DNA of 64,000 nt from Beroe forskalii (lineage: Eukaryota; Ctenophora; Nuda; Beroida; Beroidae): the NCBI GenBank assembly GCA_011033025.1, contig WFMF01000095.1, positions 434,001-498,000 on the forward strand. Direction: 5' to 3'. Under the pieces are notes generated by a model that worked only from the letters and a program-made list of their open reading frames with translations, had not been told where the DNA came from and did no database searches. This document shows, one piece after another, positions 1,142 to 39,034 of the stretch. Positions within the stretch are counted from its first letter, which is position 1. Each line of letters opens with the position of its first letter. The position numbers and the translations under genes were made by a program.

Positions 1142-4100
1142 TCATATGGCATCGTACTGCGTCTTAATAGGGTAGGTGTTAACGAAATAACCCATCATGT
1201 AATCTCTGATAGCAACTGCATTTTCCATCGTGATAGGGTCTCTTCTGGGTTGTCTTTGCTCTACCAGTGGACTCAAGAGATTGTAGCATCGTTTAGCCTT
1301 TTCAGTTTCGTATTTAGTTTTGAGTGGCCTTTTCTTTGAAATATAGTTATGCAGTAGAATGCAACTTTCAACTATCAACTCAGCGTTTCTCGGGAGACAA
1401 TGGACCCTGATGTGGAGGACCCGGAATCTGTTGGCAAGTATGCCGAAAGCTACCTCCACCGTTTGACGGGCTCTGGAAAGCCTGTAATTAAACACATCTT
1501 TTGTTGCATTCATCAATTTAGAGAACGGCTTCATGAGTCTTGTATTCAGTCCAAATCCATCATCACCGACGAGGTGAAACGGTATATTTGGGCCATCACT
1601 CTCAACTTTTCCATTGTGGTCTGCCAGTTGTTGAGCACTGGGGATGTTCAACGGATTGTTGTCTGGAGTCGGTTCGAAGTAGGCACGTAGAGGAGACCTG
1701 AACCAAATTCCTGCATCTGACATTCTACCTGGTCGACCTATATCATAGGCTAGAAATCTATAATCAGCAGATACAACAGCAAGGAGCGATATCGAGAATG
1801 TCTTTTTATAATTGAAATAAAGGGATCCGGAGTTGAAAGGTTTAATCATCTGGACATGTTTGCCATCGATGGTGCCGATGGCATTACTGTAATTCCATCG
1901 TGATGCAAATTGTCTTTCTATATGCTTCCAATCATCTTCTGTCCTGATAGAATAGCATATTATACTTACTTAGTACTTTGCAGAGTCTGTTTTAATAATA
2001 CATAAGTTAAGTATATAAATTCAATGAGGCACATGGGAATAAAGGCACTAATGGGGTGTCATTGTGTCAATGAGGTAAAGGGGAATAAAGGCACTAAAGG
2101 GGTGTCGATGAGACACATGGGAATAGAGGCACTAAAGGGACATGGGAAATAAAGGCACTAAAGGGGTGTCAATGAGGTACATGTGAATAAAGGCACTAAA
2201 GGGGTGTCAATGAGGTACATGCTTACATGTGAATAAAGGCACTAAAGGGGTGTCAATGAGGCACATGGGAATAAAGGCACCGAAGGGGTGTCAATGAGGC
2301 ACATGGGAATAAAAGCACTTAAGGGGTGTCAATGAGGTACAGGGGAATAAAGGCACTAAAGGGGTGTCAATGAGGTACAGGGGAACAAAGGCACTAAAGG
2401 GGTGTCAATGAGGTACAGGGGAATAAAGGCACTAAAAGGGGTACAATGAGGTAAGAATAAAGGCACTAAAGGGGTGTCAATGAGGTACAGGGGAATAAAG
2501 GCACTAAAGGGGTGGCAATGAGGTACAGGGGAATAAAGGCACTAAAGGGGTGTCAATGAGGTACAGGGGAATAAAGGCAATAAAGGGGTGTCAACGAGGT
2601 ACAGGGGAATAAAGGCACTAAAGGGGTGTCAATGAGGTACAGGGGAATAAAGGCACTAAAGGGGTGTCAATGAGGTACAGGGGAATAAAGGCAATAAAGG
2701 GGTGTCAATGAGGTACAGGGGAATAAAGGCAATAAAGGGCCAAAGGGGTGTCAATGAGACACATAGGAATAGAAGCACTAAAGGAACATGGGAAATAAAG
2801 GCACTAAAGGGGTGTCAATGAGACACATAGGAATAAAGGCACTAAAGGAACATGGGAAATAAAGGCACTAAAGGGGTGTCAATGAGGCACATGGGAATAA
2901 AGGCACTAAAGGGGTGTCAATGAGGCACATGGGAATAAAGGCACTAAAGGGGTGTCAATGAGGTACAGGGGAATAAAGGCACTAAAGGGGTGTCAATGAG
3001 GTACAGGGGAATAAAGGCACTAAAGGGGTGTCAATGAGGTACAGGGGAATAAAGGCACTAAAGGGGTGTCAATGAGGTACAGGGGTATAAAGGCACTAAA
3101 TGGGTGTCAATGAGGTACAGGGGAATAAAGGCACTAAAGGGGTGTCAATGAGGTACAGGGGAATAAAGGCACTAAAGGGGTGTCAATGAGGTACAGGGGA
3201 ATAAAGGCACTAAAGGGGTGTCAATGAGGTACAGGGGAATAAAGGCACTAAAGGGGTGTCAATGAGGTACAGGGGAATAAAGGCACTAAAGGGGTGTCAA
3301 TGAGGTACAGGGGAATAAAGGCACTAAAGGGGTGTCAATGAGGTTCAGGGGAATAAAGGCACTAAAGGGGTGTCAATGAGGTATAGGGGAATAATGGCAT
3401 TAAAGGGGTGTCAATGAGGTACAGGGGAATAAAGGCACTAAAGGGGTGTCAATGAGGTACAGGGGAATAAAGGCACTAAAGGGGTGTCAATGAGGTATAG
3501 GGGAATAAAGGCACTAAAGGGGTGTCAATGAGGTACAGGGGAATAAAGGCACTAAAGGGGTGCCAGTGAGGTACAGGGGAATAAAGGCACTAAATGGGTG
3601 TCAATGAGGTACAGGGGAATAAAGGCAATAAAGGGGTGTCAATGAGGTACACGGGAATAAAAGCACTAAAGGGGTGTCAATGAGGTACAGGGGAATAAAG
3701 GCACTAAAGGGGTGTCAATGAGGCATATGGGAATAAAGGCACTAAAGGGGTGTCAATGAGGTACAGGGGAATAAAGGCACAAAAGGGGTGTCAATGAGGT
3801 ACAGGGGAATAAAGGGAATAAAGGGGTGTCAATGAGGTACATGGGAATAAAAGCACAAAAGGGGTGTCAATGAGGCACATGGGAATAAAGGCACTAAAGG
3901 GGTGTCAATGAGGTACAGGGGAATAAAGGCACTAAAGGGGTGTCAATGAGGTACAGGGGAATAAAGGCACTAAAGGGGTGTCAATGAGGTACAGGGGAAT
4001 AAAGGCACTAAAGGGGTGTCAATGAGGTACAGGGGAATAAAGGCACTAAAGGGGTGGCAATGAGGTACAGGGGAATAAAGGCACTAAAGGGGTGTCTATG

Positions 4101-5900
4101 AGGTACAGGGGAATAAAGGCACTAAAGGGGTGTCAATGAGGTACAGGGGAATAAAGGCACTAAAGGGTGTCAATGAGGTACAGGGGAATAAAGGCACTAA
4201 ATGGGTGTCAATGAGGTACAGGGGAATAAAGGCACTAAAGGGGTGTCAATGAGGTACAGGGGAATAAAGGCACTAAAGGGGTGTCAATTAGGTACAGGGG
4301 AATAAAGGCACTAAAGGGGTGTCAATGAGGTACAGGGGAATAAAGGCACTAACGGGGTGTCAATGAGGTACAGGGGAATAAAGGCACTAAAGGGGTGTCA
4401 ATGAGGTTCAGGGGAATAAAGGCACAAAAGGGGTGTCAATGAGGTACAGGGGAATAAAGGCAATAAAGGTCTTAAGGGGTGTCAATGAGGAACAGGTGAA
4501 TAAAGGCAGTTAAGGCCAATGAGGACGTTTGCGGACAAAGAGGGATGGGATGTTGGGCTAATTGTGCGACGTTATCAGTACTTTTACAAGAAATTCCACA
4601 CTTTTCTGAAACTTTTAGAGAAAATATTCACGACCGGGGGAGAGAAGGAGGCATCGTCGGATTGCGTACGTTTGTGAAGAAAGGGGATGGGTCGAAAGTG
4701 GCAGAAATTTTGTGGACGTATTTTATATGACTTTATGGGTGGCAGCCTACGAGGGGCTTAAGGCCTTAAGGGGTGTCAATTTAGGAGATAGAGACGCTTA
4801 GGGGAATATGGATGTTTAAGTGGTTCGGCGCATGTTCATTGTACATAGGGTTAATATGAGCGCTTAAGGGACCTCAAGAAGGCACTGAGGTTTAGGGGGA
4901 CCGGGGAATATGGACGCTAAAGGGGTGTGAATAGGGTGTACCAGGGAATAGCAGGAGGGGCCATGTGTCAAATAGGCAATGGAGCACCAAAAGACGTCAA
5001 CGACATAAAATTAAAATCGCACCTATGATAATACCGTAAAATCTAAAATTTTTCAGATTACAGTCCCGTAGCAAAATCATTCATAACGATGTATTTTAGC
5101 AAACGTACCTTGGAAGGTTTCCATATCTTGGTCGCAGCTTCTTAATCAATACAGCCAGCACCCTCGGAATGATCTTTGAAATGGTGGGCCTACCAACCAT
5201 GAAGAATAGAGATAATGAAGTGTGAGAGGTGCCAGCAGCCAAGTGCCTGATTAGGCAGTTATTATTATTAAGTTGAATTAGGGCAGACTGGAGTCAGCTT
5301 CCATTTCCAAAGTTATGTACTTATGTATACTTTTTATGTAGAGAGAAATTCAAATAGCGAAAATGTGAATAAAGAAAAAAAGAAGGCAATATTCATTAAA
5401 ACGTCTTCGATGCTATTTTTGTTACTGAGTTATCGTGTGGAATACCTTAAAGTTATCACTAGTTGCTCTTTAGGAGAAATTCCTTCACGTGATGTGGAAT
5501 TGTCTCGAGATATATCACGCTTCACCATTGCAAGGATTTCGAAAAACTCACTTCTCGTTACTCTCATGAAGTACCTGGGTTGCATTATGTTACTTCATGA
5601 TATTATTCAAATTAAACGGTTATGCAATATGCAATGATAAACCAGATATTATAATTATCAAACAGCAATAATTCACTGCATAAAATTACAGTTACATCAA
5701 ACATGAATCAATGACCTGAAATACTCATCATCCTGCTCGAACAAAGCTTTGAATTGGCATTGCATGGCCCCCTGTCTACGTCTCCTTCTTAAATATGGAT
5801 GTACCCACCATCTGTGGTGATAATTTTTCAAAATTCTAAAATTGTTCAAATCATAGTAGGTATCATTATCAGGTCTGCTACAAGCACTCACTGTGTCCAT
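1142..5900 (-). CDS. PIF/Harbinger-type transposase (HARBI1-like), four exons
   Basis: Four exons can be joined in frame with GT-AG sites: 5716-5900, 5446-5574, 5109-5246 and 1142-1943, giving about 417 residues, a normal Harbinger transposase length. The N-terminal exon holds the RWWVHPYLRRRR motif typical of this family. Exons 2 and 3 encode the helical region (KRDISRDNSTSREGISPKEQ, then HLAAGTSHTSL). The last exon carries the DDE_Tnp_4 nuclease with the three acidic positions: TIDGKHV, SDAGIW, and the Glu of the VEVAFGIL segment. It would cut and join transposon ends in the nucleus, and in HARBI1 systems it works with a MYB/SANT-like partner that I do not see here. No frameshift or stop was found, so it is either a young transposon or a domesticated gene. 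The start at 5900 is the first Met; an upstream exon is possible. Intron 3 (1944-5108) is filled by a 38-bp minisatellite. Nearby MITEs with TAA duplications could be its substrates (inference). Confidence 0.8.
2023..4512. repeat. 38-bp minisatellite, about 65 copies
   Basis: Tandem copies of a 38-bp G/A-rich unit containing GGGGAATAAAGGCACTAAAG and GGTGTCAATGAGGTAC. Variants with CACATGG instead of TACAGGG and a few shortened units cluster in the first 900 bases, while the central part is almost perfectly regular. The strand is strongly purine-biased. The array lies wholly inside the last intron of the Harbinger transposase gene. Degenerate related units (TTAAGGGGTGTC) continue to about 4930. 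Confidence 0.95.
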
Positions 5901-8431: not shown

Positions 8432-11400
8432 GGAGTGTGGAGGTAAGATGCATCTCAGAGACTCCCAGTACCAGAAGGCCCACACGGACTTCTTTGAGGC
8501 GTTCAAAAACTACGACGAATCAGGATCCCCTCGTAGGACAGCCTGTTTGAAGTACCTCGTTCTGGCAAGCATGCTCATGAAGAGCAATATCAACCCCTTC
8601 GACTCGCAGGTTAGTGCTTTACAAACCCTTCGACTGGTTGTAGAAATTACTTATTTTTAGATTGTTGAAATTTTGCATACCATTCATAGAAGTCCTAATA
8701 AAGGCATTAGTGTCGTCTGAATTCCGAAATAACCCATTTTTCGTCTCCTATGGGGGAGAAAATTAAAGCTTTTTTCGGGCTGAAAATGGCCCATTCGGCC
8801 CTTTATTCGTCATAGAGATCTTCGGGGTGGCCGAAAAATGTTGAATCTGGTCATAAACTATGTGTCTGACACCACTGCAGCAATGATTTTTGCCAGTTTT
8901 CGCTGGTGTCCCTGTACAATCCAAAAACCCTAAAGTTTGAGCAATTGTGCTTGTGTTTTTCACATAAGTCGTCAATTGCAACGCACAAATAGCCCGTTAA
9001 AAGGAATGAACATATTCTCAGGAAGCGAAGCCTTACAAAAACGACAGGGAGATAATCGCCATGACAAACCTTGTCAAGTGAGTAATCCCATTAAATCCCA
9101 TTTCGTTAACTTGCCTGAACTTTCAAGTAGATTCAAACTTCTGTGATAAAATGTATTGCATTAAAGATAATTAAAACTTCCGAAGCACCAATGAAAAACA
9201 ATATGAGATCTTATGATGGCTTTTCTATTTCTTATGGCTTATAATGTTCTATACGAAGATCGCCACATCACGACAAATTCACATCTTTATTAATTACACT
9301 GCTCTATTTTACATTTGCCAATCTAAAGCAGGTAAAATACTCGTTCAATTTAAGCCTATGCACCTTACTTTAGATAAAGACGATTCGAATCTACTAGATT
9401 TTCAATGATTTTCAAGATACCATCTTATAATACTTAGAAAGGGTCCGCAGTAACTTACTCCTGATGAATATCGACAATGAGCCCGGCAATGTGATTTATT
9501 TGCAATGCGTATCAGAGCAGCGACATTGATCAGTTCCAGAACATTATAAAGGAGCACCATGACAACGTCATGGGTGACACGTTCATTAAGGAACACATCG
9601 AGGATTTGCTGAAGAACATAAGAACTGAGGTAATGTCCTTGTAAGAACTGAGGTAATGTCCTTTTCATGAGCCCTAGTTAAAACACATTACATTTACATT
9701 TATCAGATGGGACTGGCGCGGTGGTTTGCAAACCTGTGGGTGGACATGTCACAGCCTCTTTATTACACTTAAGGTGACACTGCAATATTGAGTGACACCG
9801 CAATATTGAGTTACACCGCAATATTGAGTGACACTGCAATATTGAGTGACACCGCAATATTAAGTGACACCGCATTATTGAGTGACACCCCAATATTAAG
9901 TGACACCGTGCCAATATTGAGTGATACCACAATATTGAGTGACACCGCAATATCGAGTATAAGCGCAATATTGAGTGACACTGCAATATTGCGTGACAGC
10001 CCACTATATAGTAACACCGCACTTTATAGTGACACTATGCCAGTTATGTCACTATGTAGTGACAACATGTCTTTTTATAGAGACACCATGTAACTGTATA
10101 GTGACACCTTGTAACTGTATAGTGACACCATGTCACTTTATAGTTACAGCATGTCACTATTCAGTGACACCATGTCACTATATTGTGACACCATGTCACT
10201 TTTCAGTGACACCATATCCAACTCTTTCCCTGATCAGGTCCTGATTAAAGTGATAAAGCCCTACACGAGGATTAAAATAGAATACGTCGGGGAAGTTCTC
10301 GGAGTACCACTGCATGAGGTAACCATAGCAACATATAGTAGTTATAGCAACCTATAGTGATTAAAGCAACCTTTAGTAATTATAGCAACCTTTGGTAACT
10401 AAAACAACCTGATGTAAATAGCCAATGGTAAATATAACAACAAACGGTAACTATAACAACCAATAGTTACAACCTCTGGTATAACAACCTACTGGCAACT
10501 GTATAGACCTTTGGTAACAACCTATGGTAACTATAACAACTTAAGGTAACTGTGACAACAAATGGTAAATTTAACAACCTATAGAACTATAACAACCAAG
10601 GTGCATGATTACTACAGCAACCCAGGAAATGCATCTCCTCTGCAAGTATTTTCACAGCACTAACACAGCAAAACAACACGAGTACACACCAGCCTCCCGC
10701 TGAGACAAACAAGTAGTCAAATCACGTGAATCTGCTGTAATAGTGCTGTCACGTGGTGTGGTTACCAAGGCAACCCTCTGCGTGTCTCTTTATCACTTCA
10801 CACGAGCAAGGTACCTCCTGCCGGTGTCACTCACTAGCCACTCCATCAGCTTATTAGCACTGCAATAGTACTGTGCTGAATGAGCATTGTGCATACCATC
10901 GCAATAGGCCAATAGATCCTATCCCGCAGGCTGAACACCTGCTAGTCGGCTGTATTCTGGACTGGTGACCCTCCTATCCCGCAGGTTTAACACCTGCTAG
11001 TCGGCTGTATTCTGGACTGGTGACCCTACCCCGCAGGTTGAACACCTGGACTGGTGACCCTCCTATCCCGCAGGTTTAACACCTGCTAGTCGGTATTCTG
11101 ACTGGTGACCCCTATCCCGCAGGTTTAACACCTGCTAGTCGGCTGTATTCTGGACTGGTGACCCCCTATCCCGCAGGTTGAGCACCCACTAGTCGGCTGT
11201 ATTCTGGACTGGTGACCCTCCTATCCCGCAGGTTTAACACCTGCTAGTCGGCTGTTTTCTGGACTGGTGACCCTCCTATCCCGCAGGTTGAACACCTGCT
11301 AGTCGGCTGTATTCTGGACTGGTGACCCTCCTATCCCGCAGGTTTAACACCTGCTAGTCGGCTGTATTCTGGACTGGTGACCCTCCTATCCCGCAGGTTG

Positions 11401-12853
11401 AACACCTGCTAGTCGGCTGTATTCTGGACTGGTGACCCTCCTATCCCGCAGGTTTAACACCTGCTAGTCGGCTGTATTCTGGACTGGTGACCCTCTATCC
11501 CTATCCCGCAGGTTTAACACCTGCTAGTCGTCGGACTGGCTGTATTCCGGGTTTACTGGTGACCCTCCTATCCCGCAGGTTGAACACCTGCTAGTCGGCT
11601 GTATTCTGGACTGGTGACCCTCCTATCCCGCAGGTTGAACACCTGCTAGTCGGCTGTATTCTGGACTGGTGACCCTCCTATCCCGCAGGTTGAACACCTG
11701 CTAGTCGGCTGTATTCTGGACTGGTGACCCCTATCCCGGCTGTATTCTGGACTGGTGACCCTCCTATCCCGCAGGTTTAACACCTGCTAGTCGGCTGTAT
11801 TCTGGACTGGTGACCCCCCTATCCCGCAGGTTGAAGACCTGCTAGTCAGCTGTATTCTGGACTGGTGACCCTCCTATCCCGCAGGTTGAGCACCCACTAG
11901 TCGGCTGTATTCTGGACTGGTGACCCTCCTATCCCGCAGGTTTAACACCTGCTAGTCGGCTGTATTCTGGACTGGTGACCCTCCTATCCCGCAGGTTTGA
12001 ACACCTGCTAGTCGGCTGTATTCTGGACTGGTTACCCTCAGGCTGAACATCCCAGGTTGAACACCTGCTAGTCGGCTGTATTCTGGACTGGTGACCCTCC
12101 TATCCCGCAGGTTTAACACCTGCTAGTCGGCTGTATTCTGGACTGGTGACCCCCTATCCCGCAGGTTTAACACCTGCTAGTCGGCTGTATTCTGGACTGG
12201 TGACCTCCGCAGGTTGAACACCTGCTAGTCGGCTGTATTCTGGACTGGTTACCCTCCTATCCCGCAGGTTGAACACCTGCTAGTCGGCTGTTTTCTGGAC
12301 TGGTGACCCTCCTATCCCGCAGGTTGAACACCTGCTTGTCGGCTGTATTCTGGACCGGTGACCCTCCTATCCCGCAGGTTGAACACCTAATAGTCGGCTG
12401 TATTCTGGACTGGTGACCCTCCTATCCCGCAGGTTGAACACCTGCTAGTCGGCTGTATTCTGGACTGGTGACCCTCCTATCCCGCAGGTTGAACACCTGC
12501 TAGTCGGCTGTATTCTGGACTGGTGACCCTCCTATCCCGCAGGTTTAATACCTGCTAGTCGGCTGTATTCTGGACTGGTGACCCTCCTATCCCGCAGGTT
12601 GAACACCTGCTAGTCGGCTGTATTCTGGACTGGTGACCCTCCTATCCCGCAGGTTGAACACCTGCTAGTCGGCTGTATTCTGGACGGCGCAGTAAAGGGT
12701 AAGATTGACCAGCTCTCCAACACTCTGTTCTTGGAGAAGGAGGAAGAGCAAAACACGCTCAGAACGAGCAGTCTCGCAGCCTGGACTCAGCAAATCAATC
12801 AGCTCTCAGAAAAACTTAATGTGACGTCCACCGGGGGAGGGTGTCATCGGTGA
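8432..12853 (+). CDS. COPS2: COP9 signalosome complex subunit 2, C-terminal exons (partial)
   Basis: Five consecutive exons match the C-terminal half of CSN2/COPS2: 8432-8609 ([28 protein letters not shown]), 9022-9077 (EAKPYKND), 9506-9629 ([16 protein letters not shown]), 10238-10318 ([15 protein letters not shown]) and 12653-12853 ([20 protein letters not shown], to a stop at 12851). Phases agree at every junction. The segment spans the end of the TPR-like helices and the PCI domain. CSN2 is a scaffold subunit of the COP9 signalosome, which removes NEDD8 from cullins. Oddities: the exon at 9506 must begin after AA, not AG, to stay in frame; the donor at 9629 is tandemly duplicated; the acceptor of the last exon is amplified about 32-fold. 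The N-terminal exons were not found in the window, so this could be a real gene with long introns or a 5'-truncated copy. A donor-like GGTGAG overlaps the stop, so another 3' end is possible. Confidence 0.85.
9620..9663 (+). repeat. tandem duplication of a COPS2 splice donor
   Basis: A 23-bp unit (AAGAACTGAG/GTAATGTCC plus four bases) occurs twice head to tail, the second copy lacking its last two bases. The first copy spans the exon end and GTAATG donor of the COPS2 exon ending at 9629. The second repeats the last ten exon bases and the donor inside the intron, giving two identical candidate donors 23 bases apart. Use of the second would add 23 bases and shift the frame. Confidence 0.9.
9773..10225. 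repeat. two adjoining short tandem arrays in a COPS2 intron
   Basis: 9773-10010 is an array of an 18-bp unit, GTGACACCGCAATATTGA. It changes without a break into 10020-10225, made of 18-21-bp units around ATAGTGACACCATGT. Both share the GTGACACC core, so the second array probably arose from the first. The array ends 12 bases before the polypyrimidine tract of the exon at 10238. Confidence 0.9.
10319..10600. repeat. degenerate 18-21-bp repeats (AACCTATGGTAACTATAAC)
   Basis: Imperfect tandem copies around GGTAACTATAACAACCTA start directly after the donor of the COPS2 exon ending at 10318. Copies differ by substitutions and small indels, so the array is older than the 55-bp array downstream. 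Confidence 0.75.
10761..10774. promoter_or_regulatory. X-box-like motif GTTACCAAGGCAAC
   Basis: The sequence GTTACC-AA-GGCAAC fits the two half-sites of the RFX-family X-box. It lies in the last COPS2 intron, close to a CACGTG E-box at 10750, just before the 55-bp satellite. Whether it is used is unknown; a motif of this length can occur by chance. Confidence 0.35.
10918..12684 (+). repeat. 55-bp minisatellite made from the COPS2 3' splice junction, about 32 copies
   Basis: Each unit reads: pyrimidine tract and acceptor CTCCTATCCCGCAG, then 33 bases equal to the first 33 bases of the last COPS2 exon (GTTGAACACCTGCTAGTCGG and so on to ATTCTGGAC), then TGGTGACC. The final unit is the genuine junction: its AG is at 12651-12652 and the coding sequence runs on into GGCGCAGTAAAGG. 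So the satellite multiplies a functional intron-exon boundary. Many units have GTTTAAC instead of GTTGAAC, which puts a stop codon directly after the acceptor. Some units are shortened. A seven-unit relative is at 38372. Confidence 0.95.
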
Positions 12854-13320
12854 GGTCCTGTTGTGATGGCATGGGGTCACTTCGTGATGACATTGACATA
12901 AGGACATGTTGTGATGGCATGGGGTCACCTTGTGATGGCATGGGGTCATTTCGTGATGACATTGACATGAGGGCATGTTGTGATGGCATGAGGGCATGCT
13001 GTGATGACATGATGTCATGTTACAATGGCATGGGGTCATGTTGTGATGGCATATTGGGGTCACTTCGTGATGACTTTGACATGTTTTGATGGGATGAGGG
13101 TATGCTGTGATGACATGATGTCATGTTACAATGGCATGGGGTCATGTTGTGATGGCATGGGGTCACTTCGTGATGACTTTGACATGTTTTGATGGTATGA
13201 GGGTATGCTATGACGGCATGATGTCATGTTACAATGGCATGGGGTCATGTTGTGATGGCATGCGGTCAATGGGTCATGTTGTTATGGCAATGAATCATGC
13301 TGTGATGGCGTGTTGAAATG
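12841..13320. repeat. 21-bp minisatellite (GTGATGGCATGGGGTCATGTT)-like
   Basis: Degenerate tandem units with GTGATGGCATG or GTGATGACATG cores run from the COPS2 stop codon to the edge of the 6.2-kb TIR element, and resume on its far side at 19553-19615. The same array without the interruption is at 38938-39300 in the duplicated segment. Confidence 0.85.
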
Positions 13321-14189
13321 TTTACTCTAGTAGCTGGCCCAAGATGAGTATGTATATGCTCTTTTAGGCAGTTTCTCAACAGGATATGTTAGTTCGATGC
13401 CTAAGAAAGCACCCTGGGGTACTGCCGCATGTCGAAAGTGGTAGGATCACTCCAAAAATGACCACGCCCTTTTTTGCTTGTCGCGACCGTGGGAAAATTT
13501 TTGAAAACCCATTTTTTCTCTAATATAGCCATGTTGGGTATCAAAATAGGGGTTTTCGAGGACGCTGAATCGATTCCAGGCATTATTGAATGCCTCAGCT
13601 ATCCCGTTTTTAAGATATCCTCAAAAAACCATATACCTTTGATGGGCGCACGTATGAAAAATGATTATAAGATACTATTTTCCACCATGTGGTCAACTAG
13701 ATAATCAAAATTGGGCTTAACATGGTGACTGAGTCGATTTCAGGTGTTACTGAAGTCCTCAGAAACTTAAACAATACGAAAAAGTCAAAAATACACTTTT
13801 TTAATGCCTCTGAGACCAAAGAAAGTGAGACAATTATAATGTTATCTCGAATTATAATCGTTCTTTTTATTTCTGTAGACATCACAGAATTTTCTGACTT
13901 GATCCTTTGACCTTTGTAATTTGATACTCCATGAACTGATATTGAATGCTGATAACTATTGATTGAAAATGACTTGCTTGTTCCAAAAATTTTGGGTAGT
14001 CCAACTAAATAGAGAAAAACGAATAGTCAACAGAACCAGAGGCATGGTGAGTGGCACATAGCAACTCACTAGACAGATAGTGGCAAATCAAGATGATTAG
14101 GAGAGAGCAAGTAACTGAGAGGAACTGCAGGGTACTGGGACGTAGATCTGGGGACAATGCAGGTCATCCATATCTACTACCAAGAAAAG

Positions 14190-14306
14190 AATCACTCGAG
14201 TAATACCACAGGAATGACCTATCAGGATGAGGAAGTCTATAATATTAGGAAATCTAACAATACTGATAGACTTCCTGATTGGTTATTTCTGTGGTATCGC
14301 ACAACA
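14190..14306. repeat. imperfect 115-bp stem-loop
   Basis: AATACCACAG...ATCAGGA...GGAAGTCTAT pairs with ATAGACTTCC...TGAT...CTGTGGTAT about 50 bases on, giving a long hairpin with a few mismatches and a loop of about 30 bases. The size would suit a foldback MITE or a small-RNA precursor; nothing more can be said from sequence alone. Confidence 0.6.
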
Positions 14307-15405
14307 GTGTTTCTGGGTAGGTATCCTCTGAGAGCAGAGATAACGCCTCTTAGATGAAAGAGAGTATCCTGTGAACTTCAGACTGTAGATGGTAGACACT
14401 AGACTGGAGCGTTCCTCCTCCTGACTGCTGACTGAAGCGTTCTTTCATGCCTGTTTGTGCTCCTTATTGCTTGCTGTCTATCTTCACTATTTCGGGACAG
14501 ATGGTGCAGGGGTTGGGAGCTGTCATAAAAGTTACCTGAAATATCAAGTTCTCCAATAACTACCATAAGGCAAATTATTGTACGCCTGATGCAAAAAGCT
14601 GGGTAATCAGTTAACAATGAGTCAAGTCTCAAGAGTACATTATTAACACTGATAAACGAAATTCGAGCCACAAAGGGGGAAATAATACGCCTGAATGATT
14701 TTGTTTGAAGTCCTTCCAAGGATGAATGAACGGGATCTATCAGTAAGATCTATCATCTGATGTTGTCCTCCTCTGAGGAAAAGTAAAAAAATGGAACATG
14801 CAAGAAGAATTGACAACCAAGTAAAAGAAGACGTAGGTGGGGGGAGAGAAGCAGTGGACGAAAGAGGCAGTGAGAGAAGCAGGACTGCAAGGGGGATAGT
14901 GCTGGTGCAGAAGCAGCAAAGGGTAGGTGGGTGCCCAGTATTCCGGTGGGTACAGGAATAGACTCAAGGGCTGCAGCTGCAAGTGAGGACGGAAGTGGTG
15001 AAAACTGTCCTAGGATTGATGCAGGACCACAACTCTTTTTAGGAGTGAAAGCCAGGTTGCCAGCAGTAGGATGTACAGTGTACACTGTACATCTTTTTTC
15101 TCCTGGTTTTACAGGTTAATCTTCCTGGTTTTTAATCTATCTTCAAGCTAGATTAGCTGTAGCCCAAATGTAAGGCGTCCTATATCTTGTGACTGTCTAC
15201 TTCATTTCTGCTTGATGACTGGGACTGATCAACGGTGTGCTTGTAATCTCTACAGTCCTCCTGTTTACGTTGCTCCTATTCGTAAGTCAACTGCTTAGCT
15301 GGATAAAACTGATTAGAATCAATCAATTTTTCAAGAGTCTTAAGATGAAACTATGAAAGAAACAAATCATGTGATCAAACTGCACACTTTACCAGTATAC
15401 TATAT

Positions 15406-15580
15406 ACGGTAAATACACACTTGGGTGTGTAATTACCACATTAATTCCACGAGCTTGCGAGTGGAATTCATGCAATAAATGCACGAGCTTGCGAGTGTAT
15501 TTATTGGAGTAATTGCACGAGCTTGCGAGTGCAATTACGATGGTAATTTACACACCCAAGTGTGTATTTACTGTATTATT
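15406..15580. repeat. cluster of five hairpins, three with one constant loop
   Basis: Three adjacent hairpins share the identical 10-base loop GAGCTTGCGA but have different stems: AATTCCAC/GTGGAATT (15443-15468), AATAAATGCAC/GTGTATTTATT (15474-15505, one G-T pair) and AATTGCAC/GTGCAATT (15511-15536). They are framed by two further hairpins, ACACAC-TTGG-GTGTGT (15415-15430) and ACACAC-CCAA-GTGTGT (around 15545-15569), which are themselves inverted copies of each other. The whole is a nested palindrome of about 175 bases inside the 6.2-kb element. Confidence 0.85.
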
Positions 15581-16592
15581 ACCCTGCCATATACGAATCA
15601 ATCAAAGTAGATGGTTTACAACTTAAGTATTCGAACTCAATGCTTTATGAATAATGGGTACCTACATTATTTCATAATAACATAATTGAAACAGGCGAGA
15701 ATTTTGGACAAATTTGCCAGTGATTTGTAAAAGTCAGAATCACATCATCATCGAAACGGGGTCAATTCAGCGAATAAGTTCAAAAGTCCAAATGATACAA
15801 CCAGCGCCCAGCATTGATACATACTGTTAGTGCATGACGTAGTGTATGTATATGTACTTTACAAAAATTTTGTTTTGATCTTTCATTGCCATAAAAAATG
15901 AACCACGAAAGTTAAGTACTCAATCGAAAACAAAACAATTCACACCACAAACATTAATAACAACTGACTCGAGAGCTACAATCTTATGCGGATCTCGTAT
16001 AGAATCTGCCCTTAAAGATAAACACGATCACATGTAAATGTAGTCAGCTAAATCTTTAGAGTTCATCAAAATGAATGTATGTACGCCTCAGTTGAACAAT
16101 AAGTTTTGCGCCATAATCATTATCTTCATCCCGATCTAAAATAAGTAACGAACACTGACAGATAGAAATGACGGCGCACAGAAATAATGTAGTTGAATTT
16201 GATAAAACAGAGCAATACACCCTATATATGGCGCCACAAGTCTGCGTTATATCTCTAAGACTAGCTAAATAAACATTGAAACACGGATGGAGTTATCAAG
16301 CCCGTCTAGGTGGCGCCATTTAGGTGTACACGATAGTGTTCCTTCTATCTATTTTATCTGAATCTTTATCTTGTGTTGCCCTATAATATCGTTAAGATAT
16401 ATCGTATTTTATACATTGTGCTCATATTTACTTTATCTTGTGCTACCGAATGTGCCATATTTAAGAATATAACATATATCGTACCGAACATTATACCCCT
16501 CCCAAGCTTGTTTTAGCGACCGTGTAAGTTTGGTTATACGGTCTCCACTGAATTACAGTGAAAAAAAGCTTAAAATGAAATTTGATTTTATA

Positions 16593-16878
16593 AAGGAGCA
16601 CTCAAAAATCTACTTAAGCGTTGAATCCGGACGAGGGTCGTCAGACCCGAGTGGGAAGAAATACTGTTGTTTGGTCAGAAAATAGTCGGCCAAAGCTATT
16701 TCCGGTCGGGGTATAATCCGGTTCCATGATCTCAGCTGTGACCGTATACCTTCGATAATGAACTCGGCACGCCTCGTCCATTATCCAACTTACACAGTCT
16801 CGGCTGTCGCCTCGACCATGTAAGTTGCGGTATACGGTCACCACTTCGACATGTAACCGCTTATTATGTGCTCCTTAT
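16593..16878. mobile_element. possible MITE with AAGGAGCAC ends
   Basis: AAGGAGCAC at 16593 and GTGCTCCTT near 16878 are inverted, with loosely matching inner sequence (TTAAGCG and CGCTTATT). The interior repeats GTATACGGTC and GTAAGTT motifs and a short open frame of 67 codons of unknown meaning. Ends are short, so support is modest. Confidence 0.4.
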
Positions 16879-17292
16879 CGCTATTTTATCTTGTTTTACA
16901 GTATATATATACGGTTAAGAATAGATTATATCGAATCGTTTTTAATATGAAAAGTGCGATAACAGATATCAGGAGCTTATTATTCTCCTATTTACATCCG
17001 CACAGAGATAGCAAATAGGTTAGACTCGAGCGAATGGCCGTTTCAGAAAATTGGTAGTAATTCAACAGTTGGGAATAGTAATTCAACACTTGAATAGTAA
17101 TTCAACAGTTGAGGTATAGTAATTACACACTTGACAGTAATTCAACTGCTGGGTACGGTGATATTACATGATTAATATTGCTCAAAAATTCGAAAAGTAA
17201 TTACACTGCAGGGTAATAATACCAGTAATACCATGAAAGCATGAAGAGTGCATATATGTCCTCCAGATCCGTGGGGTTGGGGGCACTACGGC

Positions 17293-17835
17293 GGGGGGGG
17301 ATCAGGGACTAAGTGCAAGACACGAGGCCGGGGTGGGTGGTGTTTGGCCCTTGGCGAAATCACTTAGTCCACTGTACTAACTGAGGTGGTCACCTTATGG
17401 GAAAATCATAATCACTTAGTCCAAATGGCATATTTTTCCATATTTGGGCACTTTTTTGCCAGATGATGTCATAATTTTGGGGTGGGTCCCCACAAATTGT
17501 ATCAAATTTCAGTTAGTACACGGGACAAACTGCTCATTTTGGGGTGGGTCCCTACAAAACATGACAAATTTCAGTTAGTACATGGGACAATCTGCAGCGT
17601 TTTATGCTCATTTAGGGTGGGTACCTTCAAATAGTGACAAATATCAGTTAGTACAGGGACAATCTGCCGCTTGGATAGGTTTTTATGCTAATTTTGGGGT
17701 GGGTCACTACAAATGGTGCCAAATATCACTTAGTTAATGGGATTATCTGAAGGGGTGGTGGGTGGTATTTCAAAATTGGGCAAAAAATCACTTAGTACCC
17801 CTCGTGTCTTGCACTTAATCCATGATCCCCCCCCC
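17293..17835. mobile_element. MITE with ATCAGGGACTAAGTGCAAGA inverted ends
   Basis: A G-run followed by ATCAGGGACTAAGTGCAAGA and CACGAGG at the left is mirrored at the right by CCTCGTGTCTTGCACTTAAT, CATGATC and a C-run. Inside, a unit of about 95 bp with AATTTCAGTTAGTACA and TTTTGGGGTGGGTCC repeats four or five times. No coding capacity. Confidence 0.75.
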
Positions 17836-17944
17836 GACTACGGAGGCTTTAGTTAGCCTACCGTCTCAAATAATAATATAAAAAAATACCATGAAGTTTT
17901 ATCGCTGTACGTAGAGCTCTGTACGTAGAGCTCTGTAGCGTTAA

Positions 17945-18348
17945 GGGGCCATCCAGAAATGAGCTCATCAATTGGGTATGTATGTATGTTTTGGAAATGA
18001 TGAGGTAGTGATGAGGTAGTATGTATGTAGGTTTGCAAAATGATGAGCTCATCACTTTGAGGCGAAATTTTGACATCAACCACTTGTTCTAAATTTGGAC
18101 CATACCGGTACACTGAATGTAGCCTGCAACCATTTTCAATTTTGAATGAATAAGTCAGATGATCAAACTAAAATTGCAGTAGTGATGTCACTTCAGCCTT
18201 TATTATTGAATGAGTGACGTGCCATAAATCTTGAAATGATGAGATGAGGTTGGGGTATGTATGTATCTTTCCCAAATGATGAGGTAGTGATAAGGTATGT
18301 ATGTTCAAAAAAGGCCGATTTTTGATGAGCTCATTTCTGGATGGCCCC
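17945..18348. mobile_element. 404-bp MITE, GGGGCCATCC ends, TAA target duplication
   Basis: Terminal inverted repeats begin GGGGCCATCCAGAAATGAGC, and the right end is the exact reverse complement. TAA flanks both sides (17942-17944 and 18349-18351). The interior has GTATGTATGT and ATGATGAG runs. A 3-bp TAA duplication with G-rich tips is typical of PIF/Harbinger-mobilised elements, so the transposase at 1142-5900 or a relative could have moved it (inference). Confidence 0.75.
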
Positions 18349-18631
18349 TAAAGTGGTATTGCTGTGCTTCCCTTCACTTTTGTATCAGTGGTGACTCACC
18401 ACTGTCGTTGGAAACTGCCTGTTGATTCCAGCTTCTGATAGGGCTTTAGAAGATTAGAGCCTGAGGTCAGTCTGCTATGTTTCCTTGGTTTCCTGTCCAT
18501 TGTGGACATGGGTCAACCCTTTGAAGACATCTTGTTATCTTTAGAAGGAAATTCCGATTGCCTGTAAATCAAACAGCCGAGTTCCTGTGTCCATCTGCTC
18601 CTCTATCTCTCTTAGTCATGTGATGCTTCTG

Positions 18632-19009
18632 TCAACATGTAACCTGTATTACTGTATCAGAATGCATCCTGCATATATAAACTTTAAGCCTGAGCTCAGC
18701 CTGGTATGTTTCCAGAAATTTTACTGAAATTCCAGTCCAGTTTAAAACAGGATTGAAGAGTGAAGGTTCTTCAGGTAGTAAGGTTACCAGTAGTAGATTT
18801 TCCAATCTCAAGGGTAAGCTGTCTGGAGTTTCTTGGATTGGCCAATCTCCCCTGTAAAGAAGAAACTCCTTGCTACATACGTCGTCTATCTGCATCTTCC
18901 ATTGGAGCCACCCGGCCTGCTCCACGGGCAGGTTCAGCAAAGAGGTTGGCAAGCCTATTATCTTAGTAGCCTCAGTTATGTCTATCTTGATACATTCAAC
19001 ATTCAACAA
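18632..19009 (-). CDS. 125-codon ORF inside the TIR element, unknown
   Basis: An uninterrupted frame of 125 codons next to the right inverted repeat of the 6.2-kb element. The peptide has ordinary amino-acid composition (for example EQAGWLQWKMQIDD and LLYRGDWPIQETPDSLPLR) and no motif I recognise. It may be the tail of a decayed element-encoded protein. It could also be chance, since no splice site or promoter is evident. Confidence 0.3.
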   Translation of the reverse strand: MLNVECIKIDITEATKIIGLPTSLLNLPVEQAGWLQWKMQIDDVCSKEFLLYRGDWPIQETPDSLPLRLENLLLVTLLPEEPSLFNPVLNWTGISVKFLETYQAELRLKVYICRMHSDTVIQVTC

Positions 19010-20205
19010 CTGTAGTAATGGAATGCATTGGACTTTTTAATGTCGGAGAACATAATTTCTCATACTTTCATACACCATGAAAAAGTGTATTTTTGACTTT
19101 TTCGTATTGTTTAAGTTTCTGAGGACTTCAGTAACACCTGGAATCGACTCAGTCACCATGATAAGCCCAATTTTGATTATCTAGTTGACCACATGGTGGA
19201 AAATAGTATCTTATAATCATTTTTCATACGTGCGCCCATCGAAGGTATATGGTTTTTTGAGGATATCTTAAAAACGGGATAGCTTTCAATAATGCATGGA
19301 ATCGATTCAGCGTCCTCGAAAACCCCTATTTTGATACCCAACATGGCTATATTAGACAAAAAATGGGTTTTCAAAAATTTTCCCACGGTCGCGACAAGCA
19401 AAAAAGGGCGTGGTCATTTTCGGAGTGATCCTACCACTTTCGACATGCGGCAGTACCCCAGGGTGCTTTCTTAGGCATCGAACTAACATATCCTGTTGAG
19501 AAACTGCCTAAAAGAGCATATGCATACTCATCTTGGGCCAGCTACTAGAGTAGTTGTGATAGCATGAGGGCATGCTGTGATGACATGTTGTGATAGCACG
19601 TGAGAACATGTTGTGAAGTTAAAATCGAACAGACAGACTCGTAAATGAACAGTGACTAGTTTATGAACATTAACAAGCGACTATTAATTTAGAAGCGACT
19701 AGTTAATGGACAGGAGGTTGTGCCAACGCGACTTATTTATGAATATGTCGACTAGTTAATCAACAGGTAACAAGTTAATGAACAGGACGATCAGATAATG
19801 AAAAGGGTGACTGTTTTATGAAAAGAGCGACTAGTTTATGAACAGGTTCATGAAATAGTTGCCAATGGGTTGTTTTAAAGGATATGTAATTTTATTATTT
19901 ATCATTGGAGTTGTTTCAATTTTCATATTGTATTAAAGATAGTATTCAATTTTTGCAATTAATTCCTACTATCAATTTTCGTCGATCATGTCTATACTCA
20001 ATAAATACACCAATTATATATTACCCCACTAGAAAATATATTTGCGTATTTGAAGTCAATAAAATGGCTAAAATCTTCTCTTTGTTCTTCTCCCGGCCCT
20101 TATTAAACAGAGTTCCTGGTGTTTTCTCTATAGTCTATTCAGCATGATGGGCCTTTATACCGTGTACAGTTTCCTGCCCCGTATGAGGGCCTGCCTTTCT
20201 TATCT

Positions 20206-22792
20206 TCATTTCCTCTCATCTCTCAATGGCGGGGAAGCTGCATATATGAGCTGTTGTTTCGTAGTGCTGCCCAGTGTTGGTTCTGTGGGCTGTGTGTTTT
20301 GCCTGTGCTGCGTGTTCTGTGGGTGCTGTGTGTTCTGTGGTTGCTGTGTGTTCTGTGGTTGCTGTGTGTTCTGTGGAGACTGTGGGTTCTGTGGTTGCTG
20401 TGTGTTCTGTGGTTGCTGTGTGTTCTGTGGTTGCTGTGTGTTCTGTGGAGACTGTGGGTTCTGTGTTGTGGAAGTTCTCTGTTTTGGGATACCTCTCATC
20501 GGTTTAATGGGCGTCATATCTGGCTGGATGTCCCCCATTCTGTTCTCTACTTCAATTTGATAAGGTGTGGATTGCATGTGCAAAATCGGACCTGGCATTT
20601 GGTATTTCTGTGTTGGACTCGCAGCCGCCGTCGACTCTCTTATTGCGTCCTTTAAAAGTGCTGGGTTGGGTTTGAACCTCCTGGATGCCGCACTCCGGGC
20701 CGGTTTCACCGGCCTCACCACCGGCCTCGCTAAAGAGTCGTAGGAGTCTGAACTGTACGCGTGGCCGTGTAGCAGAGATAAGTCCTCCGTGGAGCAGTCG
20801 GTGAAGAAGTCGTCGTCTGGGAGGATGCTGGCAGTGGAGACTAGTCGCTCCACCTCCTCCCTGATTACTCGCATGTTGTGCCGACTCCGGGCTTGGTCCG
20901 TGCTGATCACTTTGAGTGTTTTCTTCCACCTGCAGGAAGGCGAGGGGTTAGCTCACAGTGCTATAACTTCTACTATAAGTTTAAGTTTAGCTTCAAACCT
21001 CCCAATTTTAAATGAAATTTCAAATTGACCGTGCGCCCTTGGTCTTGTCAACGCAGTACGCACTACGGTAGTATGCGTGCCCAATGGGACGCATACTACC
21101 GTAGCTAGTCTATAATTACTGTTCTACTAACTATAGATATATGGTTGATCAATGATCATTGATCATATCTCAGCAACTCAGTACTCTTTACTGTAGTATG
21201 TAATTGAAAATGCGTGTTACTTACTGCAGGAAAGTGAAGCAGATGAATGCGAAGGCGCACAGCACTGCCACAACAGCTAATCCAATAATGAGAGCATCAG
21301 TCGTCTTCATCCACCCCCCGGTTTCTGAGTCGTCTTTAAGTTGATCATGTTTCGGAACTTCCGGAATTTTCTCTTCTTCTGGAAGTGGAATTCCTTCATC
21401 TTCATCCGGAATTCCTACATTTTCTTCCGGAATTCCCACATCTTCCGAAATTCCCGCTTCTTCAATAATTCCCCCCTCTTTAGGAATTCCCTCCTCTTCA
21501 GGAATTCCCTCTTCTTCACTAATTCCCTCTTCTTCACTTTTTCCGCCCTCTTCACTAATTCCCCCCTCTTCCGGAATTCCCCCCTCTTCAGGAATTCCCT
21601 CATCTTCAGGAAATCCTCCCTCTTCGGGAGCCCCCTCTTCTTCAAAGACTCCATCTTCATTGATAAATCCTGCCCTCGGTTTTCCACCATCTTCTGGAAT
21701 TCCAATTACTCCCTTATCTCGATCCTTATCTCTGTTGCTGTCCGGTTGTATCGCATTATTATTGATCATGTCAAAGCCACCTCCGTCAATGCGATCGTCC
21801 TCAATAACTTTTTGTATATTGTAGTCGTTTTGCCTCTGCTTCACCACTCTTCGGCCAGCTGCTGGTGGCTCCTGGGCCGGCATTTCCTGGGCCGGGGCGG
21901 CGGCCCAGCTGTATAAGTATTCTTGTGTGACTGCCGGGGCCCCTCCGTAGGCTTCCAAGTAACCCGACGCCGTCCTGTCGGCTCCGTGCTGCTTGATGTG
22001 CTCTCGCAGGCTCTTGATCTCTGCGTGATCGAGCTCCTCCAGGCTCCTCTGTTTCTCCCTTTCTCCTCGGAGCAGAGCAACGTCCGCCTGGAACTCCTGA
22101 ACGTCCGCCGCGTGCAGGGCCCCCTCACTGCGGAGCTTCTTCAGCTGGGCGTGGTCCCGAGCCTCGTGGTCTGCGAGTTGCTGCGCATCGTGTTCGGTGA
22201 CTTGCTGAGCACGACTCTTCGCCTCGTCTTCAGCGAGTTGCTGAGCACGACTATTTGCCTCGTGGTCAGTAAGTTGCTGAGCGTCGTCTTCGGCGAGTTG
22301 CTGAGTACGACTCCCTGCCGTGTTTTCAGTGAGTTGCAGAACACGACTCTTATCCTCGTGGTCTGCGAGTTTCAGAGCAGGACTCTTGTCCTGTTCAGTG
22401 AGTTTCTGAACTCCGCTCTCAGCCTCGTGATCGTGTGGAGGTGTGCGCTGATTTGCTGTAGACACTGCAGAGAGCGTTGCTGTAATGGTGTCTTCATGGT
22501 GCTTCTCATGATCACTCTTCAGCTCTCTTATTTCCTCCAACACTTCAGAAATCCTCTCCATGAAATGGTCGTCCTTGCTGATGGAGCTGACCTTGTTCTC
22601 GAGGTTGCGGACCTTAGCTCTGTACTCCTCAATAACTTTCTGAAGAGGAGGCCCATCACTCTTCAAGTTGTCAGTGTTCTCAAGGATTCGCTCAAGTTTC
22701 TCCCGGTAAGCAGCAAGTTGAAATTCCTTATCGTTGTCGTAATACTCCTCGGGGTCCATGGGGAGCGGAAAACACATGCCTGAGTGATGCAT
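20206..22792 (-). CDS. acidic coiled-coil, repeat-rich single-pass membrane protein, copy A
   Basis: Two exons, 21225-22792 and 20206-20929, join through a GTAAGT donor and a TTCCTGCAG acceptor to give about 763 residues. A stop lies two codons before the chosen start (MHHSGMCF), so either this ATG or a start in an unseen upstream exon is used. Order: charged coiled-coil region (residues about 20-100), heptad-like QQLAEDEAKSRA repeats (about 150-215), a further coiled coil, an acidic array of GIPEEGGISEE-type repeats (about 390-470), one transmembrane helix (GLAVVAVLCAFAFICFTFL, about 500-522), a basic WKKTLK stop-transfer, then a tail of about 235 residues with QNTQQPQ repeats. No signal peptide is visible; charge bias favours a cytoplasmic C-terminus. 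I do not recognise the family. The paralogue at 39916-42543 is about 95% or more alike outside the repeats, with in-frame indels, suggesting both are maintained. A matching X-box upstream hints at a ciliary role (inference). Confidence 0.75.
21063..21104. repeat. intronic hairpin in coiled-coil gene A
   Basis: CTACGGTAGTATGCGT pairs with ACGCATACTACCGTAG around a short GCCCAATGGG loop region. The same hairpin, with a longer perfect stem, is at 40784-40824 in gene B. It lies in the only intron (20930-21224), 40 bases before a 20-base perfect palindrome TGATCAATGATCATTGATCA at 21146-21165. Confidence 0.8.
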
Positions 22793-23132
22793 CGATTAGG
22801 AAAACAGTAAACACCTCCAACCGGCAACTCCCACGAATACATGTCTATGCTACTGCTAATACATATCAAAAGCTTAGAACTGAAGAAACCACTTACGAAG
22901 ACTTTTTAGTGCGTATGGAAATTGGAAAGCCGAAAACAAACCTGCTTTAAATATCACCAGAGCGAGAACGTGGATGTTGATAATCCTTGGCATATTATCT
23001 GATGAATTTATTCTGATCTGGATTCGGATCTTAGAGCAAACGTAAGTAATGCAAGGTTAATTGATGCGAAAAGTAATGTGAATGAAAAATAATGAGCGCA
23101 CGTGCACATGATACGCAATTTACTTTTAGTCT

Positions 23133-23146
23133 GTTGCTATGGCAAC
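23133..23146. promoter_or_regulatory. RFX X-box GTTGCTATGGCAAC upstream of coiled-coil gene A
   Basis: GTTGCT-AT-GGCAAC matches the X-box consensus bound by RFX factors (GTNNCC/T-AT-RGNAAC). It lies 341 bases upstream of the chosen start codon of the minus-strand gene ending at 22792. The equivalent site before gene B is GTTGCTATGGTAAC, even nearer to the consensus. RFX/X-box control is the hallmark of ciliary genes in animals. Binding itself is not shown. Confidence 0.6.
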
Positions 23147-23467
23147 CAGCGTAAATCAGTGAATGAGCGCGCGCCGCGCGCTGGTATATCTTCGGCGTAG
23201 CGGAAATATGCATATTGATGGGATTGCAGGGCCTTAAGGCGCAAATTCGGGCTGAGGCTAAGGGGGCTGAAGCCCCCCCCCCCCACATGCCCTAATTCTT
23301 CAAAATAAATAAGAAATGTTCGTGTTGAATTCAAAATTACATAAGATGAGGGAAGATGATAGTTGGGCTCATAAAATTAAAAAATGTTTAAGTGTGTGAA
23401 CCTCAATCCATAGCCTTTAACTCGTTATCAACATTAAACATAGCTTCATCCTTGGTCCAACCCCCCC

Positions 23468-33622: not shown

Positions 33623-35592
33623 ATGAGTGGTTGGGTAGTTCTCCTAGCAACGCTCACGACGGTGGTGGTTGGTTCCTGGTCCTCGGATCCAGTGTGCACC
33701 CCCACTCTGGGGTACTGCACCAAGTTCTACAACAGCACCAAGCTGCCCAACAAGTTCAACGAGGACAACTTCAACAGAGTTTTCAGTGAGTACCCTGCTT
33801 ATTATAAGCATGCAGAGTCCACGAGCTGATATCCAAGATGGAATTATGAGGGGTTTTGTATCGAGGAAAAAGTGCAATCCGTGATAGAAATAATAACACA
33901 TCATGGGCGCATATTACCCAAAGCGTGAGTCTAGTATAAGTCCGCGACCGATTTTTTGATCGAGAAGCTTCCATCACTTCTTTTTGATGTAACTGTAATT
34001 ATTCAGTGAGATTGTCAGAGTGAATAATGTCCGATAAGGTTTCTACTTCACTAGTTGAATAACCTGACATCTATGTCTCCCCTGCAGAAGTACAGAAGCA
34101 TTACGAGGACCTGGCCTCGAGCGAGTGCCACCCCTACATAGACCTCCTGGTGTGTGCCACCCTCTTCCCCACCTGCACTCCTGGCTATGAGATCACCCTC
34201 CCTTGCTTCGACTTCTGCAAGGAGGTCAAACACTCCTGCACTCCTTTCATCAACAAGGCCAAGATACCCTGGCCCTTCTACTTCGAGTGTCTGGATCTCC
34301 CTCGCAAAAAGCGGGGCCGTCTGTGCATCAACCAGCGCTTCAAAATGTCTGATCTGAAGAAGATCAAAGTGAAGGTGCCCCCTCCCCCTGCCAAACTGGT
34401 CACTTCGCCTCCAGAGGACTTGTTTGACGAGAAGAACACCACCCCCTGGAACGGGGTCTTCACTCAGAACCCTGAGGTTAAGAACTTCGGATTGGAGATG
34501 GTTTCAGTAACGCCGCCCTTTCAGGAAAGTAGGAAGTTTGAGGAGTGCAGTGAGCCGATACTCTTCACTGTGTCCCAGCAAAACATAACCCGAGTGTGGA
34601 TCATGGCGTGGAGCAGTATCGCCATCTCCTTCTCCCTGGCCATGATATTCCTGGCTTCTTCTCAAGGGCACATCACCAAACCTGAGAACATAGTGCTGAC
34701 CATCTCCCTGTATCTGGTGCTGCAGGCAGCAGGCTTCCTGCTGGCAGTGATGGCGCCCCAGTCCCCCTTCCAGTGCGCAGTGAGCGAGGGCGGCAAGATG
34801 TTCCTGAAGAAGAGCAGTCCCCGAGCCACCTGCTACCTCTCCTTCACTGCCACCTACCTGGGAGGAATAGCCGCCAACCTCTGGTGGGTGACGCTAAACA
34901 TCCTCTGGTTCCTCATGCTCGGCATGAACTGGGGCCGGGAGAGCCTCTTCAAGGTCTTCAGGTACCTGCACCTGGTGATAGGGGCTCTGGCAGCTGGTCT
35001 CACTGTCACGGTGCTGACAGTGGGGGCGGTGGAGGGGGACGACTTGTCCGGGGGCTGCGTGGCTGGGGGCATCCTCTCCCACCACTTGGCCACCTACGAG
35101 CTCACTCCGAACTGCGTGCTGCTCTGCATCGGGGCAGTGGTGCTGGCCTGCGGGGCCTGCACCATGGTGAACATTGGGCGGGTGGCGGGCTACAGGGACT
35201 CTCACAACGTGCCCTTCCACAGACTCAGAAACACTGCCCTCTTCCTCTTCTGCTACCTCTTCATCTTCCTGCTCAAAGTCATGTGTCAGTTTTACGAACT
35301 GGGCTACCGCTCCCAGTGGTACGAGACTTGCGACCCCAACCTTCACACCTCCAATTTCACTTTCCTCCAGCTGGATAACTTTACCGGCAATGACACTTCC
35401 CTCACAGGCGAGAGCAGGGCCTCTTGCGGCCCAGACTTCAGGATTTTCATGGTAAAATATACCTGCAACCTTTTCCTACCTCTCATAACTGCTGTGTACC
35501 TCAAAAACACTGTCAATATAATAGAGATTCTGAAGAAAATTTTGCCACTCGCCAAAGGCTATACCTACCGCGCAGGCGAAACAAAAGTTTAA
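33623..35592 (+). CDS. Frizzled-family 7TM receptor lacking the KTxxxW motif
   Basis: Exons 33623-33785 and 34088-35592 join in frame (GTGAGT donor, CCCCTGCAG acceptor) to give 555 residues, the usual Frizzled length. A signal peptide (MSGWVVLLATLTTVVVG) precedes a cysteine-rich Wnt-binding domain (residues about 25-135). All ten conserved cysteines are present, with YCTKFYNST, ECHPYIDLLVCATLFPTC and LPCFDFC. Seven hydrophobic segments follow from about residue 224; TM3 carries the family signature LWWVTLNILWFLMLGMNWG (about 319-337). Such receptors bind Wnt outside and recruit Dishevelled inside. Here the segment after TM7 reads LKNTVNIIEILKKI, without the KTxxxW Dishevelled-binding motif, and the tail is only about 20 residues. 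It may therefore be a divergent Frizzled with altered signalling, or a Frizzled-like orphan. GC-rich codons contrast with the AT-rich flanks. Confidence 0.9.
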
Positions 35593-38925: not shown

Positions 38926-39034
38926 TCGGTGAGTTCCTGTGTGATGGCATGGGGTCATTTCGTGATGACATTGACATGAGGGCATGTTGTGATGGCATGA
39001 GGGCATGCTGTGATGACATGGACATGAGGGCATG

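Follow-up and report, generated by a model that had tools for sequence, protein, structure and literature searches.

The stretch of DNA analyzed here, referred to as the window, comprises 64,000 bases (434001-498000 of scaffold C1080; coordinates without a scaffold name are window positions) and contains the exons for the C-terminal half of CSN2/COPS2, subunit 2 of the COP9 signalosome. At the acceptor of the last CSN2 exon there is a minisatellite whose 55-bp unit is a copy of that intron/exon junction. The assembly searched consists of 216 Mb in 1134 contigs. The features of the locus are the following, with a slash at splice boundaries:

8432-8609, plus strand: CSN2 exon 6 (ECGGKMHL...PFDSQ), 84% identity by tblastn to human CSN2 236-297
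9022-9077, plus strand: CSN2 exon 7, 90% identity to human CSN2 296-315
9506-9629, plus strand: CSN2 exon 8, 54% identity; its boundary sequence (9495-9515) has TTTGCAA instead of the expected AG acceptor
10238-10318, plus strand: CSN2 exon 9 (...VPLHE), by homology to CSN2, with donor GAG/GTAACC
10914-12685, plus strand: junction minisatellite, 33 units of 55 bp, by unit-by-unit alignment and string counts
12631-12652, plus strand: last spacer and pyrimidine tract with the acceptor that precedes the true exon, within unit 33 of the alignment
12653-12853, plus strand: CSN2 last exon (exon 10), open to its stop, by translation and homology

The junction minisatellite and its gene

The array was divided into units by wrap-around alignment, and strings were counted as exact matches within 10901-12670. 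A full unit has, in order, the spacer TGGTGACC, the pyrimidine tract CTCCTATCCCG, CAG, and the 33 exonic bases GTTGAACACCTGCTAGTCGGCTGTATTCTGGAC, so that 22 bp (spacer, tract and CAG) precede a stretch corresponding exactly to bases 1-33 of the last CSN2/COPS2 exon. Unit 1 is partial and the internal units 3 and 16 are shortened (34 and 31 bp), while unit 33 forms the boundary with the open exon, which by alignment and translation reads on to 12853. The acceptor AG is retained in 32 of the 33 aligned units, unit 16 alone being without it; a pattern search of 10881-12660 found two CAG acceptors in unit 22 and none in unit 16. Exact matches number 30 for CCCGCAGG, 12 for CAGGTTTAA and 30 for GGTGACC, and the alignment shows distinct variants among the units. 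In the output of Tandem Repeats Finder the array takes up several rows that overlap, the highest score being 1639, and it is therefore not a product of chance. The first-pass annotation had described a 32-unit satellite, a number that agrees with the present one within the counting convention; the anatomy it gave (pyrimidine tract, acceptor, first 33 exon bases, and a last unit running into the real exon) is confirmed by the alignment.

The genome matches listed for a 196-base query from the array end (17 of 17) are all on C1080, within this array or a second one at 38377-38766 described below. A dispersed satellite is thus unsupported, the unit being present only at the C1080 locus among these matches. 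A coding repeat was likewise rejected upon reading the sequence, because a period of 55 is not divisible by 3 and stop codons interrupt the reading frame.

The identification of the gene as COPS2, already made in the first reading, is correct. Exons 9 and 10 together (93 residues) match COP9 subunit 2 with an E value of 2e-15, against 2.4e-4 for the best other PCI protein, and the exons are ordered along the protein. The exonic part of the unit encodes a peptide aligned to VESLLVQCILD of human CSN2 (conserved VExLLVxCILD), and therefore the array was copied from the exon, which is the direction previously assigned.

With human CSN2 as the query, exons 6-10 were found in the window, exon 5 and a fragment of exon 4 upstream on C1080, and exons 1-5 on C469. 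The gene is thus split between C469:1020597-1030537 and C1080:415163-446853, with exon 5 and part of exon 4 common to both, and a gap of 100 N lies directly before the exon-4 fragment on C1080. The two scaffolds have the same DNA sequence throughout exon 5 (142 bp) and the exon-4 fragment (74 bp), and the surrounding matches of at least 150 bp are about 85-95% identical. The assembly yielded no second copy of exons 6-10 (5 of 5 and 16 of 16 best candidates scored), apart from a last-exon copy at 38734; the other places matched, among those listed, cover only query bases 241-513, which are intron 6. A match to CSN2 on C314 (26% identity, residues 308-409, E 2.8e-7) is too weak for a second CSN2 and probably corresponds to another PCI protein.

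The introns of CSN2 contain other repeats. Between exons 5 and 6 there are 64 copies of a 38-bp unit (2064-4469) and a minus-strand open reading frame with a DDE_Tnp_4 domain (1145-1969), which is presumably Harbinger-like. In intron 6, the segment 8666-8932 belongs to a repeat at a spacing of about 350 bp that is found in many places, mostly on scaffold C1 among the matches listed.

Acceptor choice and predicted products

All 33 CAG acceptors of 10881-12660 were joined in silico to exon 9, and a single one, the last, gave the full C-terminus. Behind 13 of the 33, translation yields one valine and then a stop at codon 2 (12 with GTTTAA, one with GTTTGA), in accordance with the earlier observation that many units place a stop directly after the acceptor. 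The remaining 19 lead to a stop 6 to 19 residues into the last exon, the commonest product coming from 9 of the 33. The use of an internal acceptor is thus predicted to give a protein ending 1 to 19 residues into the last exon. The first reading had also suggested that the donor-like CTG/GTGACC could turn each unit into a microexon; the weak donor is indeed present, but the 35-nt microexon that it would bound shifts the frame.

Predicted folding was considered as a means of telling the acceptors apart. The consensus CAG lies inside a perfect 6-bp stem (GCAGGT-TGAAC-ACCTGC), and the probability of an unpaired AG is 0.0003 for the terminal acceptor and 0.040 on average for the 32 internal ones, whereas for the three other acceptors computed, those of exons 6, 7 and 9, it is 0.63-0.93. 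The hairpin was rejected as a discriminator because the terminal unit has the same 6-bp stem, and the z-scores of four 110-nt folds covering part of the array are ordinary (0.47 to -1.27). Recursive splicing at CAG/GTTGAA or CAG/GTTTAA was also considered; its donor half fits the usual consensus poorly. The terminal unit is set apart by what follows it, namely the rest of the exon, with the purine-rich stretch GGAGAAGGAGGAAGAG, and the end of the message, while the internal units precede a weak donor or a stop. For this reason, selection of the terminal unit by exon definition is likely.

The second copy and the repeat background

A second copy of the array and of the last exon is present further along the window:

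38377-38766, plus strand: second array copy, by alignment, with 7 full units (5 with CAG) and terminal acceptor CCCACGGG
38734-38932, plus strand: second last-exon copy, with 3 substitutions, all synonymous, and 2 single-base deletions

The two last-exon copies differ by these substitutions at 3 of 199 sites, compared with 160 of 3697 in the neighboring duplicated stretch (19553-23279 against 39245-43033, 93% identity over 3.8 kb). Each of the two deletions in copy 2 lies in a two-base run and could be due to a sequencing error; together with the synonymous nature of the substitutions, this weakens the view of copy 2 as an exon killed by frameshift, and its broken terminal acceptor stands. To the left of the second array, 237 bp recur on C422 (97%) and 210 bp of the same flank on C732 (92%), so that this flank is, on sequence grounds, dispersed DNA.

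The related arrays have 33 and 7 units. They may be duplicates in a genuine tandem arrangement, or alleles from two haplotypes that were placed one after the other; copy 2 adjoins dispersed sequence. Units with GTTGAAC and with GTTTAAC are present in both arrays, and therefore the array would predate the parting of the copies; probably, it is older than their split and has changed in length since. The 3′ flank (12854-13322 against 38934-39246, 19% substitutions) was set aside as a probably misaligned tandem repeat.

Several other features accompany the duplication. A 6.2-kb stretch of copy 1 (13323-19552), absent from copy 2 and flanked by inverted repeats of about 479 bp (97%), is likely a DNA transposon. 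The duplicated stretch carries a minus-strand open reading frame twice (21224-22795, 524 aa, and 40945-42546, 534 aa); both copies have coding repeats and end in a hydrophobic C-terminus. The copy scanned, at 21224-22795, had no Pfam match, and the codon differences between the two are 19 synonymous, 26 non-synonymous and 10 multiple. The window also has long open reading frames for Frizzled (34063-35589, 509 aa), a SpoU-methylase protein (46267-50541, 1425 aa) and the beta subunit of Phe-tRNA synthetase (53031-54404), all uninterrupted, beside the intron-rich CSN2.

Tandem arrays with a period of at least 10 make up 18.3% of 110 kb examined on C469 and 16.3% of 160.5 kb on C1080, window included. 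Two further repeats adjoin CSN2 donors:

9619-9663, plus strand: two-copy junction duplication, a 23-bp repeat across the exon-8 donor (ACTGAG/GTAATG; Tandem Repeats Finder, 2.0 copies, 100%)
10319-10600, plus strand: degenerate array with a period of 19 bp, where intron 9 begins (Tandem Repeats Finder rows 10319-10410 and 10515-10597)

By eye, the 19-bp array is roughly in register with the donor GT, but its match across the donor is weak (17/24). For the CSN2 junctions in general, a local copy was scored when at least 22 of 24 bases including the junction recurred within 400 bp, a cut-off chosen after the values had been seen; 21 junction instances (18 distinct) were compared with 120 random positions each on C469 and C1080. 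A local copy was found at 2 of the 18 distinct junctions, the last-exon acceptor (24/24) and the exon-8 donor (23/24), the next best value being 17/24, and at 37 of the 240 random positions (20/120 on C469, 17/120 on C1080). The CSN2 junctions are therefore not favored, and no more than chance is needed in a genome so rich in repeats; these values, from one gene, give no support to an amplification that prefers splice sites.

Origin of the array and comparison with known junction repeats

The explanation that we favor, and consider rather probable, is a mirage-type minisatellite, the kind of repeat known from amphioxus, that arose when a single junction was amplified by chance, in the one C-terminal half of CSN2 that was found, and that would be tolerated since the terminal acceptor would still work. 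The sequence fits this type in having tandem minisatellite-like units that cross an intron/exon boundary and adjoin the authentic junction. A segment reaching from 22 bases ahead of the last-exon boundary to 33 bases past it would have been duplicated locally in tandem, in the direction given by the homology, and slippage or unequal exchange, as the presumed copying mechanism, may have spread it to about 33 units. With about one-sixth of the examined sequence being tandem repeat, the junction would have been struck by chance. The terminal acceptor, favored by exon definition, would be joined to exon 9 often enough for the full CSN2 C-terminus still to be made.

Several observations weigh against this explanation. 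A complete, contiguous and canonically spliced CSN2 was not found in the assembly: exons 1-5 are on C469 and exons 4 (part)-10 on C1080, and the exon-8 acceptor is AA. With an AG ten bases beyond the exon-8 boundary, the frame would be preserved only if an earlier, weak donor were used and five residues were lost. The array acceptors are nearly identical and predicted folding fails to mark the terminal one, while a simple first-acceptor rule would favor the proximal unit. As a further caveat, the terminal acceptor of the second copy has lost its AG. The argument from constraint on the last exon is weak, as substitutions in 300-column windows of the neighboring stretch vary between 0.3 and 8.7%, with 1 window of 13 under the exon's 1.5%, and the junction test covers one gene only. 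The AA acceptor and the scaffold split could be matters of assembly or allele, and the split in particular may reflect a scaffold error, a translocation or trans-splicing.

The same lesions bear on whether the gene works at all. The first-pass annotation had reasoned that a separate intact COPS2 elsewhere would reduce the locus to a decayed pseudogene; no separate C-terminal half was found in the assembly, which argues against that view, and the exon-8 acceptor and the scaffold split keep it standing. In a related form, the C1080 gene would be a damaged allele or decaying copy, with a working, lesion-free CSN2 allele missing from the assembly or misjoined in it. Besides the AA acceptor, this agrees with the position of the gene on two scaffolds, with the 100-N gap directly before the exon-4 fragment, and with the broken terminal acceptor of the second array. 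However, homology remains clear in exons 6-10, C469 has the same sequence in exon 5 and the exon-4 fragment with differing flanks, and the last exon shows synonymous substitutions only; such damage is unlikely. An error of assembly, whereby the array length, or both copies of the array and last exon, would come from mis-assembled haplotypes, is very unlikely. It would draw on the scaffold gaps at C1080:415063-415162 and 478441-478540, on the 93% identity of the copies over 3.8 kb, compatible with alleles in tandem, and on the copy-2 deletions in two-base runs; nevertheless, C1080 is without an N gap from 415163 to 478440, the units carry distinct variants, unlike those of a looped assembly, and the two arrays have different lengths.

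The array could also be regulatory, with about 33 competing acceptors setting the amount of full-length CSN2, the array length tuning the COP9 signalosome, and the truncated isoforms being real. The AG kept in 32 of 33 units, the 32 of 33 candidate acceptors leading to a stop after 1 to 19 last-exon residues, and the different lengths of the related arrays (33 and 7 units) would all suit this proposal, which is nonetheless decidedly unlikely, given that junctions are not preferred over random positions, that homogenization by turnover keeps AGs without selection, and that the amphioxus mirages are described as not interfering with regular splicing, although the use of cryptic sites is allowed. 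There is very little likelihood that duplicated splice-junction arrays are recurrent and length-variable in a non-bilaterian and that the number of decoy acceptors in CSN2 sets the ratio of full-length to truncated protein. If true, satellite length polymorphism would be a quantitative switch for the COP9 signalosome, and mirages would not be a chordate oddity.

The earlier statement that no such satellite had been described is wrong. The mirages of amphioxus, reported for Adh3 and the BflGb6/BflGb9 globins, are minisatellite-like tandem duplications across the intron/exon boundary (PMC3087553), with further cases in lancelet PGBD5 and troponin C (PMC3902484), and human variable internal tandem repeats at exon-intron boundaries, in genes of duplicated segments, are another precedent and can alter splicing (PMC2812944). 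The BflGb6 unit joins the 3′ end of an intron to the beginning of exon 2 and is present in 6 copies in one haplotype and 3 in another, and the Adh3 data together with globin reverse transcription PCR are reported to suggest that mirages leave regular splicing undisturbed, the use of units as cryptic sites being possible (PMC3087553). In the open-access literature searched, mostly as listings, no mirage-type case outside chordates was found other than the CSN2 array.

The CSN2 array resembles the amphioxus mirages in that its unit, like that of BflGb6, joins an intron 3′ end to an exon 5′ part, and in that many units carry AG/GT signals; the unit number varies between haplotypes in amphioxus. 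It differs in having about 33 units (BflGb6 6 and 3, PGBD5 2-7) of 55 bp (BflGb6 150-160 bp; 10-72 bp reported for Adh3), and in its position at a terminal coding exon, where 13 of 33 acceptors are followed by a stop at codon 2. The host is another difference: the cases described under that name in these reports are all cephalochordate, and this one probably is not. In a mitochondrial cox1 fragment of 601 bases, TGA stands in frame twice and reads as Trp, and AGA occurs four times, twice at Arg positions conserved in COX1. AGA as Arg would exclude amphioxus, tunicates and the other bilaterians with reassigned AGR. The host would thus be a non-bilaterian, and the divergent COX1 suggests that it is perhaps a ctenophore; the Frizzled gene of the window is in keeping with an animal. 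Host identity, however, is not defining for this type of repeat.

The human boundary repeats are likewise minisatellites at exon-intron boundaries, but with a mean unit of 30 bp present four times and in recent primate duplicates, whereas CSN2 is a single-copy core gene. The IFI6/G1P3 minisatellite (Nucleic Acids Res 1995), which reportedly gives multiple splice donors, would also have tandem units carrying splice sites inside a transcript; there the sites are donors, and in CSN2 they are acceptors. The kind of repeat is thus already known, and the remaining interest lies in the array size, the core gene, and a host seemingly far from amphioxus. The CSN2 array offers a natural test of how the spliceosome selects a single acceptor when about 33 are nearly equivalent, and is relevant to the idea that duplicated junctions are seeds of new introns; it is longer than the BflGb6 and PGBD5 mirages (2 to 7 units), and lies in a core gene and seemingly outside chordates.

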